Below, piece after piece: positions 2,830 to 5,853 of a DNA stretch of 30,764 nt. The position numbers and the translations under genes are program-made. The first letter of the stretch is position 1. Every line of letters starts with the position of its first letter. This DNA comes from a virus: IMG/VR virus record IMGVR_UViG_3300048919_000409, positions 1-30,764 of that record; one strand, written 5' to 3'. The notes beneath the pieces are model-generated. The model was not told the DNA's origin. It worked only from the letters and a program-made list of their open reading frames with translations, and did no database searches.

Positions 2830-2860
2830 AGGTTACCCGCGCGCCGAGCACGCTCCCGCC
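2830..2860 (-). promoter_or_regulatory. Promoter-like element before the DUF2634-like gene
   Basis: GGCGGGAGC, 16 bases, TAACCT, then 7 bases to the GTG at 2822. The upstream 9-mer is identical to that at 512-520. The caveat is that the TAA of the hexamer is also the stop codon of the glycosyltransferase gene, so part of the match is constrained by coding. Confidence 0.4.
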
Positions 2861-3906
2861 GAGCGGCGATCGTCCTCGAAGCCGCGGCCGCCGATCACGT
2901 GCTCCAGGTAGCGCTCGTAGCGCGGCGCGATCGCCTCCATGCCGTAGCACTCGATCGCGCGCTCGCGCATCAGCTCGGAGCCGGCGGCGCGGTTGACGTG
3001 GCGGGCGAACTCGATCCCGTCGAGGTAGTCGCCGAGCGTCCGGCATCGCCAGCCGTTGAAGCCGGTCTGGACGGTCTCGGTGAAGGCGCCCACGTCAGGC
3101 GTCAGCGTCGGCGTGCCGCAGAGGTGCGCCTCGATCACCGAGCCACCGAAGGGCTCCAGGTAGATCGTCGGCTGGATGACGGCGAGCGCCCGGCCGAGCA
3201 GGTCGGAGCGTTCCTCGGGGCCGACCACGCCGACGCACTCCCCGTAGTCGGGCTTGTCGGGGCCGGCACCGGCCAGGATCAGCGGCACTCCCGCGGCCTC
3301 GGCGATCTGCGCCGCGGCGAGCGATCCCTTGCGTCGATCGAGGCGCCCGAGGTAGAGCAGGAAGTCGCCGCGGCCCTCACCGAGCTGGAAGTCGGCCGGG
3401 TCGAAGTAGTTCGGGATGACCGTGTCGTTCCAATAGGGCGGGTCGGCCGCCTCGAACATCGGGTCCGTGTTCATCGTGGTGACGGCGTGGTACCAGGCGT
3501 AGGACTCGAAGACGCGGTAGGCGGCGAAGGTGCCCGAGTAGCCGACGCCGTACTCCACGGTCATCGGGGCACCGACGAAGTCGGCGAGTTCCTTCTGACG
3601 GGCGCCGCCGATGATCCCCACGATGTCCTCGGCGTCACGGCGGCGGTCGTAGACGTTGCGGGCTCCGCTCATGTTGGCCTCGGCCCAGCTCGCGTCGAAG
3701 GGCAAAGGCTCCATCTCGGGCCACGCCTTCACGACGCTCACGTTCTCGGTATCGGCGAGGTCGGTGCGGCCGTCGCAGTAGAGGATCACCTCGTGGCCGC
3801 GGGCCGCCATCATCTGCGCGAAGCGACGCACCTTGCCGCTGTAGGCGCACGTCGAGTTGTCGCGGGTGACGGGGCGCCCCGGCAGCGCTGGAAGATGCAG
3901 CCGCAC
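2833..3906 (-). CDS. Glycosyltransferase, GT4-like (GT-B fold)
   Basis: A 357-residue protein that should transfer a sugar from a nucleotide-sugar donor to an acceptor. Residues 20-50 contain GKVRRFAQMMAARGHEVILY, the usual N-terminal Rossmann-like half of GT4 enzymes. Residues 183-194 read LLYLGRLDRRKG, the conserved 'GRl...KG' donor-domain start. Residues 250-261 contain EPFGGSVIEA with the E-x7-E pair (E251 and E259), followed by CGTPTLTPDVGAF, typical of retaining GT4 enzymes. There is no signal peptide or membrane segment. The GTG start at 3906 overlaps the preceding TAG by one base. A sugar-transfer enzyme between baseplate genes is unusual; the nearest plausible acceptor is the Thr-rich collagen-like fibre two genes upstream. 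Donor and acceptor cannot be read from sequence. Confidence 0.88.
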   Translation of the reverse strand: MRLHLPALPGRPVTRDNSTCAYSGKVRRFAQMMAARGHEVILYCDGRTDLADTENVSVVKAWPEMEPLPFDASWAEANMSGARNVYDRRRDAEDIVGIIGGARQKELADFVGAPMTVEYGVGYSGTFAAYRVFESYAWYHAVTTMNTDPMFEAADPPYWNDTVIPNYFDPADFQLGEGRGDFLLYLGRLDRRKGSLAAAQIAEAAGVPLILAGAGPDKPDYGECVGVVGPEERSDLLGRALAVIQPTIYLEPFGGSVIEAHLCGTPTLTPDVGAFTETVQTGFNGWRCRTLGDYLDGIEFARHVNRAAGSELMRERAIECYGMEAIAPRYERYLEHVIGGRGFEDDRRSAGACSARG

Positions 3907-4223
3907 TATTCGAGCGGCGTGATCGTGCAGGGGCCTTCGACCAGCGAGCCGAGATGCTCACGACAGGCCTGTGTGCTTGAGGCCGCCGTGGCGATCCTGA
4001 ACGCTGCCGGGGTGTGGCAGCCCTCCGAACGACACTGCTTTCCTTCTCGGGTCGCCACCGCCAGGTCGAGCATCCCCTCGACCAGCGAGATCGCTTCCTC
4101 GTACAGCACCTCGGCGTCCCCTAGTTCCTGGTCGCGGGGCGTGGCGAGGGCGGCGAGCTGCTGCTCGGTGAGCGTCCCGGCCTCGGCGACCGGATCTCCC
4201 GTGTAATCGACGGCGTCAACCAC
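3906..4223 (-). CDS. Small Cys/His-containing protein of unknown function in the fibre-glycosyltransferase insert
   Basis: A 105-residue protein with a GTG start at 4223. The N-terminal half is acidic and helical. The C-terminal half has a possible metal site: CRSEGCHTPA near residue 65, then CREHLG near residue 90 and a Cys near the end. The arrangement C-x4-CH ... C-x2-H resembles small zinc-finger-like inserts common in actinobacterial phage proteins, but I cannot name a family. It lies between the collagen-like fibre and the glycosyltransferase and overlaps the latter by TAGTG, so the three are probably translated together. A TAGGCT hexamer ends 6 bases before the start. A role in fibre folding or modification is only a guess from position. 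Confidence 0.7.
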   Translation of the reverse strand: MVDAVDYTGDPVAEAGTLTEQQLAALATPRDQELGDAEVLYEEAISLVEGMLDLAVATREGKQCRSEGCHTPAAFRIATAASSTQACREHLGSLVEGPCTITPLE

Positions 4224-4227
4224 GCGA

Positions 4228-5853
4228 TCAGCCTACCCGAACCGGATCGACCAGGATCGAGTTGAAGTACCAGTTACCGCTCTGGGCGCTGATCGAGTTG
4301 TAGCGCGTCTGGACCACCGTGCTTTTCGCGATCGTCGTCCGGGCACGCCCGGTCGTGAGCGGCGCCCCGATGAAGAGAGACGGGGAGACCGTCGCGGCCC
4401 AGGCGATTTCGGTGGCGCCTTTCCAGGTATTGATCCGCATTTCGTTCGCAGCATTTGCAGCGTTCGTGGCGAACCTGCACACTCCCTCGACATCGGCTTC
4501 CATCGCCAGGGGGACGGTGACTGAGGGAGAGCCGGTCGTCTGCGGGGTGGCAGATGCCGTGGTGCGGGAGGTCGTGTCCGCAGCCGTGAGCGGCGGGCCG
4601 CCGATCTTCGCCCACGGATACGTTGCCTCTTCGGTGTACTCCAGGCGCCAGTAGACGCCGGTGGCGACCTTGAAGGTGCAGAGCGAGCCTTTGACGATCG
4701 TTCCGGTCGGGAGCGCTTCGACTATCCCGTAGTCTTTCGCGCCCGGCCCGGTCGCCCCGGTGGCGCCCGTGGCGCCCGTAACGCCGGTCGGGCCGGTGGC
4801 GCCAGTCGGGCCGGTCGCGCCGGTAAGCCCCGTGGTGCCCGTCGCGCCGGTGGCTCCTTTGGCCGCCAGCACTTCCCAGTATTCGGCGTTCGGCGGCGCC
4901 TCGTTCGTCCCCGCTTTCTTGGCGACGTAGGAGCTGCCCCCCGATTCGACCGCGTCGTTGATGACGTAGGCCGTGACCGCCGACCAGGCACCCATCCAGA
5001 TGATGCCGGTCCCGGCCGGACCCGTCGCGCCGGTGGCACCGATCGGTCCCGTCGCGCCCGTGGGGCCTGGCACCGTCGAGGCCGCGCCCGTGACGCCGGT
5101 GGGTCCGGTCGCGCCGGTGGCACCTACCCCTCCGGTCAGGCCCGTGGGGCCGGTGGGTCCGGTCGCGCCGACGGGGCCGGTCGCGCCGACGCCCCCCGTC
5201 GAGCCGGTGAGGCCGGTTGGGCCGGTCGCGCCCGTGGCGCCAATCCCTCCGGTGACGCCCGTCGCGCCGGTCGCGCCCTTTTCGGCGACCAGTTCCCAGG
5301 ATTCGCCGGCGACCGGGGTGACGTTGGTCGAGGCTTTCTTCGCCCGCCACGACGAGCCCCCGCTGCTGACGACCTGGCCCGTGGCGTAGGCGGTGACCGA
5401 GGACCATGCCCCTTTCCAGACGAGTCCTTCCGGTCCAGTGGCGCCGGTGGGTCCGGGAACGGTCGAGGCCGCGCCCGTTGCTCCGGTGGCACCCGTCGGC
5501 CCAGGAGGTCCGGTCGGCCCCGTGGCGCCCGTGGCTCCCGTCGCTCCGGTGGCACCTTTGCCGTGTTCTTCTTCTTCTTCGGGCTTCGCGACCAGGCCGA
5601 GCGCCACGTGTTCGCCGCGGGCGTTGGTGGCGACGACGATCGCGTCCTGCGCTTTGACCGTTTCCTGGATGCCGCGGGTGACCTCGAAGTCGTCGTCCTC
5701 GATCGAGAGCCGGCGGTCGGAGCCCAGCGCTTCGACCGTCAGCGGTTTCGCCTTGACCACGAGGTACTGCTCGACCCGCGGCGCGATGCGCTCCGCCTCC
5801 TGGCGCGAGACGCGCCGGACCTGCTCCACGAAGTTCTGGGAGCCCTGGCTCAA
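4228..5853 (-). CDS. Collagen-like tail fibre with two carbohydrate-binding-like modules
   Basis: 541 residues. Residues 1-99 form a non-repetitive N-terminal region, probably for virion attachment. Gly-X-Y collagen triplets rich in GAT and GPT fill roughly 100-142, 192-283 and 333-371. Between them are two related modules, 143-191 and 284-332, each with W-x-G-A-W-S-x-V-T-A-Y ... S-G-G-S-S ... A-K-K ... W-E-L/V, the layout of CBM5/12 chitin-binding-like modules. Residues 372-541 form a globular C-terminal domain, the likely tip. I chose TTG at 5853 because it gives a 4-base TTGA overlap with the upstream stop; GTG at 5829 is the alternative, and the long frame further upstream is a shadow. 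Phage collagen-like fibres form trimers. Thr in the Y position is a known O-glycosylation site in bacterial collagen-like proteins, and a glycosyltransferase lies close by. Confidence 0.85.
4741..5556 (-). repeat. Collagen-type triplet repeat region in three blocks
   Basis: The coding DNA of the fibre contains 9-base-period repeats at 5428-5556, 5005-5280 and 4741-4857, encoding Gly-X-Thr and Gly-X-Pro triplets. The blocks are separated by two copies of an about 50-residue module. Such repeats are prone to length change by recombination or slippage. This is protein-coding repetition, not a CRISPR array. Confidence 0.9.

Follow-up and report, generated by a model that had tools for sequence, protein, structure and literature searches.

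The 30,764-nucleotide (nt) viral record IMGVR_UViG_3300048919_000409 (hereafter the window; all coordinates refer to one strand of this whole stretch) contains a contractile-tail operon that is encoded on the minus strand, runs from position 7528 down to about 528, and includes genes for a collagen-like fibre and a predicted glycosyltransferase (GT). The order of the genes is YqbQ-like baseplate hub, a 124-amino acid (aa) protein, the collagen-like fibre, a small Cys/His protein, the GT, the sheath initiator, baseplate J and a Mu Gp48-like protein (Table 1). Adjoining genes overlap or almost abut: the TTG start of the fibre gene overlaps the stop of the preceding gene (TTGA), the GTG start of the Cys/His gene lies about 4 nt past the fibre stop, and the GTG start of the GT gene and the preceding stop share one base (TAGTG). 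This junction at 3906, as well as the gene order between the hub and the DUF2634-like gene, had been proposed in a preliminary description of the DNA; both are borne out, the latter by open reading frames (ORFs) and Pfam matches (PF24032 and PF10934). The G+C content is about 65-73% across the first 12 kb of the window.

The 541-aa product of the fibre gene consists of an N-terminal part of about 98 aa, blocks of Gly-X-Thr triplets, two modules that resemble the carbohydrate-binding modules of families 5 and 12 (CBM5/12), and a 173-aa C-terminal part. The collagen profile PF01391 matches this protein with 63.3 bits, against a cut-off of 27.2. The longest run of G-x-x comprises 22 triplets, and none of 2000 shuffled versions of the protein contained a run of more than 6; the collagen repeats are thus far above chance. 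Thr occupies 43 of the 51 Y positions, in agreement with the Thr-rich Gly-X-Thr fibre of the preliminary description. Given the profile match above the cut-off and the location between the hub and the sheath initiator, we classify this protein as a predicted collagen-like phage tail fibre, which would form a triple helix and be present in the virion. One of the two CBM5/12-like modules is hit by the Pfam CBM_5_12 profile below the cut-off (22.7 bits against 26.2, E 1e-4). For the terminal parts of the fibre, no convincing family or phage match was found; the C-terminal part is 37% identical to that of the fibre in one of the loci fetched for comparison (L008), a fibre that likewise combines collagen with W...Y modules of this type.

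The GT belongs to Pfam family PF00534 (Glycos_transf_1; 38.0 bits against a cut-off of 26.4) and to CAZy family GT4, and matches the phrog_3408 glycosyltransferase profile over nearly its full length (3.9e-53, residues 1-338 on 5-350 of 363). The E-x7-E motif corresponds to E251 and E259, of which E259 is invariant and E251 nearly invariant among 63 homologues. An AlphaFold2 model built from a 61-sequence alignment has the GT-B fold, with a mean predicted local distance difference test score (pLDDT) of 89.4 and a predicted template modelling score (pTM) of 0.90. Thus, the GT4-type enzyme with an intact E-x7-E that had been proposed from the sequence is fully supported and, because of the GT-B fold and the conserved motif, is probably active. 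A Foldseek search initiated with the model identified the alpha-1,2-glucosyltransferase tll1591 as the best match in the PDB (TM score 0.75-0.77), followed by tetrahydrobiopterin glucosyltransferases, AviGT4 and BshA, and gave no pointer to a protein substrate. The fold and the sequence do not name the acceptor, and the evidence that bears on it is comparative.

Table 1. Genes of the baseplate operon and features of the collagen-like fibre
Feature	Coordinates	Strand	Evidence
Baseplate hub, YqbQ/XkdQ-like	6221..7528	-	PF24032 (2e-8)
124-aa baseplate-operon protein	5850..6224	-	35-38% identity to the protein in the same place in L009/L516 and L515
Collagen-like fibre, 541 aa	4228..5853	-	PF01391 (63.3 bits); tail fibre PHROGs
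Collagen block, N-terminal	5425..5556	-	
CBM5/12-like W-x-G-x-W...Y modules (two), between collagen blocks	4880-5030 and 5270-5430		
Collagen blocks, middle	5080..5241	-	
Collagen block, C-terminal, 12 unbroken G-X-T triplets	4744..4860	-	
Small Cys/His protein, 105 aa	3906..4223	-	ORF
GT4-type glycosyltransferase, 357 aa	2833..3906	-	PF00534; phrog_3408; GT-B model
Sheath initiator, DUF2634/gp25-like	2277..2822	-	PF10934 (DUF2634; 5e-9)
Baseplate J	1079..2275	-	PF04865 (2e-47)

Single-sequence scans of viral contigs with the GT or baseplate J of the window yielded no matches, and relatives were obtained with alignment-based scans used in place of single-protein queries. In the phage collection, the closest relatives of the GT are nearly all from cyanophages (S-CAM7, ACG-2014f and S-CBWM1), with 34-35% identity over 94-96% of the enzyme, and in all three the GT gene is located directly after, or within about 1 kb of, collagen genes with Gly-X-Thr repeats (rich in GATG and GPTG). 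An alignment of the cyanophage GTs used as the query retrieved at least 577 relatives from viral contigs, 80 of which were kept, along with 68 loci in bacterial genomes. After collapsing the GTs at 80% identity, a collagen gene on the same strand and within 2.5 kb of the GT gene was detected in 16 of the 32 non-redundant phage clusters, 16 of the 17 Bacillota clusters and both Rhizobiales-type clusters. The collagen gene lies upstream of the GT gene in 34 of 36 cases, with a median gap of 132 bp, and there is no GT-collagen fusion among 168 GT ORFs. The arrangement in which a GT gene adjoins a Thr-rich collagen gene, as in the SgtA/BclA3 pair of Clostridioides difficile, is therefore recurrent.

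Several features of the relatives might bear on the chemistry of the modification. In 10 loci (L035, L055, L058, L075, L082, L135, L140, L145, L147 and L496), the GT carries a C-terminal fusion to a domain resembling S-adenosylmethionine (SAM)-dependent methyltransferases, and in ACG-2014f, a methyltransferase-like gene is located just upstream of the GT gene (L006:9429-9992); these associations suggest a methylated sugar. A PiuC-like 2-oxoglutarate (2OG)-Fe(II) oxygenase gene adjoins the GT gene in ACG-2014f (L006:11073-11666) and follows it one gene later in S-CAM7 (L004:16978-17574); in both phages, this gene is also close to collagen fibre genes, and a role as a chain hydroxylase is possible. 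S-CAM7 encodes a second GT-like protein (L004:16131-16973). The annotated GT starts in S-CAM7 (L004:15001) and S-CBWM1 (L005:10001) are about 31 codons late, being preceded by an earlier in-frame ATG and by homologous sequence.

In Bacillota, the GT gene mostly follows a BclA-like gene encoded on the same strand, at a distance of 80-300 bp, and the loci inspected show this pair by itself, surrounded by housekeeping genes; the flanks of L109, L137, L115 and L121, whose translations we read by eye, consist of ordinary chromosomal genes, with no phage or polysaccharide genes among them. Because there are only a few collagen genes per genome and the GT is rare (1 of 147 genomes of one order), adjacency by chance is very unlikely. 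In one Bacillota locus (L131:1-720), the paired collagen contains Ser in place of Thr at the Y position (GPS/GPE), which fits a modification specific for the hydroxyl group rather than for Thr.

Comparison with control samples points in the same direction. Among 120 viral loci of similar total length that were picked by a random 14-mer, none contained the GT family and one contained a Thr-collagen; conversely, when 120 loci were selected with a DNA pattern for Thr-collagen, 10 of them gave a strong match to the GT family. The preliminary description had proposed checking whether the enzyme and fibre genes always co-occur in related genomes. Among viral records of at least 20 kb, PF01391 collagen was detected in 28 of the 31 GT-bearing records compared with 6 of 44 random ones (Fisher p 1e-11), although these records include related phages and are not independent draws, so that the cluster counts given above are the safer figures. 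Each of the three collagen-negative GT records (L026, L069 and L086) has a sibling GT, at least 80% identical, in a collagen-bearing record (L084, L051 and L074, respectively). Co-occurrence thus holds at the level of the genome, but a collagen gene in the same slot is not constant (L007 and L515; see below). In collagens paired with the GT, the median fraction of Ser plus Thr at the Y position is 0.68, twice the 0.34 of other phage collagens, which were chosen regardless of the Y residue (p 1.6e-8). An unselected sample of collagens, too small for a verdict on Thr-high versus Thr-low collagens, contained the GT in 2 of 55 Thr-high and 0 of 47 Thr-low cases.

The operon itself is conserved in part among relatives. 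In L009/L516 (129 kb), the whole order recurs, from the hub through the small protein, the collagen fibre and the GT to the sheath initiator and baseplate J; identity to the window is 44% for the GT and 28-35% for the other operon proteins of L009. L515 (123 kb) also shows this order, but its fibre gene retains only about 140 aa of N-terminal sequence, contains no collagen and is directly followed by the GT gene; the same record contains two other Thr-rich collagen genes. In L007, whose hub is close to that of L008, a fibre without collagen occupies the slot and is followed by the GT; a Thr-rich collagen gene lies at a distance of about 12 kb. The GT therefore goes with collagen in the genome and not strictly with the neighbouring gene, which favours an enzyme acting in trans on the collagen fibres of the virion over a rigid two-gene cassette. 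The fibre and the GT had been regarded as parts of a cassette inserted into the baseplate genes. The variable portion comprises the collagen stretch together with the Cys/His gene and perhaps also the GT. The 124-aa protein and the N-terminal part of the fibre do not appear to be inserts: the 124-aa protein has homologues in the same place in L009/L516 and L515, where the next gene encodes an N-terminal part that stands before collagen (L009/L516) or occurs without it (L515). For the Cys/His protein, there was no convincing match in Pfam, PHROGs or NCBIfam and no tblastn match in phages or the fetched loci, and no homologue was seen in the relatives. In L008, an HNH-endonuclease-like ORF just before the GT gene (L008:7507-7998) opens with a copy of the GT N-terminus (VRFHVPALP), a configuration suggestive of homing-endonuclease insertion at the GT start. 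Elsewhere in the window, a head-region protein (26903-28036) contains a peptidoglycan-binding-like stretch (EVSAVQRRLGISETG...VDGVIGRQTIAALRG), which is odd at that position.

Taken together, gene order, family membership, predicted fold, the intact E-x7-E and the genetic linkage to Ser/Thr-rich collagens in phages and bacteria make it likely that the GT O-glycosylates Thr and Ser residues in the Y positions of the phage's own collagen-like tail fibre. The pairing is real rather than accidental and represents a phage variant of a known pair type, a collagen protein with an adjacent GT. In C. difficile, SgtA, which is encoded beside BclA3, transfers beta-O-linked N-acetylglucosamine onto Thr (and Ser) of BclA3 collagen-repeat peptides in vitro (PMC7157674). 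The likeness to the window is one of arrangement; BclA3 belongs to the spore rather than the virion, and sgtA is upstream of bclA3, whereas the GT gene of the window is downstream of the fibre gene. Glycosylation of its own collagen by a virus has been described for Mimivirus, whose enzyme is a bifunctional collagen lysyl hydroxylase/glycosyltransferase (Luther et al. 2011, as summarized in PMC12220804 and PMC8968730); according to these summaries, it acts on hydroxylysine, in a virus of eukaryotes. The cyanophage GTs share with the window enzyme both the phrog_3408 family and the placement beside Gly-X-Thr fibres and differ in the nearby 2OG-Fe(II) oxygenase gene of S-CAM7 and ACG-2014f. The EPclA/B proteins of Escherichia coli prophages are, like the window fibre, phage-derived collagen proteins, and trimeric ones, but have charged Y positions; recombinant EPclA is not glycosylated, no GT is described in the sections consulted, and Thr glycosylation is mentioned as a means of collagen stabilization (PMC3368898).

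What the enzyme modifies, which sugar it transfers, when it acts and what the phage gains from it are matters of inference. The fibre and the GT would be made from the same coupled operon, so that the chains could be modified before trimerization. In the cytoplasm, the GT would use a nucleotide sugar to glycosylate the hydroxyl group of Y-position Thr (or Ser) in unfolded or nascent Gly-X-Y chains, and other collagen fibres of the virion would probably serve as substrates as well. The decorated chains would then trimerize and join the baseplate, and the most likely benefit would be stability of the triple helix along with altered surface properties. The GT-methyltransferase fusions and the 2OG-Fe(II) oxygenase suggest that, in some phages, the sugar or the chain may be modified further. 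The proposal of the preliminary description that the phage glycosylates its own fibre thus gains strong comparative support from co-occurrence in phages and from the pairing in bacterial chromosomes where phage genes are absent from the surroundings, but not in the form of a strict one-to-one pair (L007, L515).

A number of observations weigh against this interpretation. Thr accounts for 48% of the Y positions in Gram-positive collagens generally (PMC8968730), so that Thr at this position proves nothing by itself. The solved structures nearest to the GT act on small molecules or glucans rather than proteins. Half of the phage clusters lack a collagen gene within 2.5 kb, and L007 and L515 retain the GT in the slot without collagen there, albeit with collagen elsewhere. 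The GT of the window lies on a long branch of the tree, where support is moderate. Finally, the GTs that Nocardia species often carry (38-42% identical; L087-L107, L146 and L150), which are closer in identity to the window GT than most of those from Bacillota, have no true collagen neighbour (one weak case among 6 clusters), so the family may have other substrates too; in one of these loci (L094), the GT gene adjoins a gene for a large, possibly secreted protein.

The strongest of the alternatives, albeit an unlikely one, is that the GT alters a surface polysaccharide or lipid of the host during infection, for example in superinfection exclusion, and lies near the fibre because both belong to a host-recognition island. 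This is a usual interpretation of phage GTs, with changes of the host O-chain suggested for pelagimyophages (PMC7029224) and DNA protection or cell-wall change for freshwater actinophages (PMC10202952), and the small-molecule and glucan substrates of the nearest structures would suit it. It provides no reason for the enrichment of Ser and Thr at the Y position in paired collagens, and it is chiefly the Bacillota pairs, with no envelope or polysaccharide genes around them, that speak against a general link between phage GTs and islands that contain collagen genes. Slightly less probable still is a different virion protein as the target, such as the capsid, the tail tube or a stretch of the fibre outside the collagen. 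The GTs of mycobacteriophages set the precedent (Che8, Corndog and Myrna; PMC12363180): going by the published description, Che8 gp110 and Corndog gp38 (Freeman et al. 2023) resemble the enzyme proposed here in modifying virion proteins, but these are the capsid and the tail tube, not collagen fibres. The GTs beside a collagen-free fibre in L007 and beside a gene for the N-terminal part only in L515 would be accounted for in this way, but both records hold Thr-rich collagen genes elsewhere, and the non-phage Bacillota pairs include no other virion protein.

Co-travel of the two genes through shared ancestry or hitch-hiking, with no functional link, appears improbable: contigs within the phage groups are indeed related and the distribution of the GT is patchy, but the pairing survives clustering at 80% identity, spans both sides of the deep tree in phages, Bacillota and Rhizobiales-type genomes, and persists where the collagen gene is located elsewhere in the genome. 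DNA-glycosylating GTs exist in phages, and the fold neighbours include small-molecule GTs, but an enzyme that acts on phage DNA or in metabolism unrelated to the virion hardly comes into consideration for a gene inside a coupled baseplate operon whose relatives pair with collagen in bacteria.

In the open-licence literature, a scope that leaves out most subscription journals and preprints, we found no report of the phage collagen/GT pairing. If O-glycosylation of the fibre by the GT is correct, phrog_3408, an orphan family of the kind usually thought to modify the host surface or DNA, would gain a concrete substrate, and tail fibres would be added to the short list of virion components on which phage enzymes are known to place sugars. 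One enzyme family would also connect phage tail fibres with Clostridia collagens, and there would be a hint at how phage collagens that lack hydroxyproline may be stabilized. More tentatively, and with somewhat less confidence than even, the family might constitute a dedicated and widely exchanged class of collagen-modifying enzymes in bacteria and phages that glycosylate Ser and Thr at the Y position, both in phage tail fibres and in the BclA-like collagens found in Clostridia. With the methyltransferase fusions of several members and the adjacent 2OG-Fe(II) oxygenase gene of two cyanophages, this would amount to a prokaryotic counterpart of the way in which animal collagen is hydroxylated and glycosylated.

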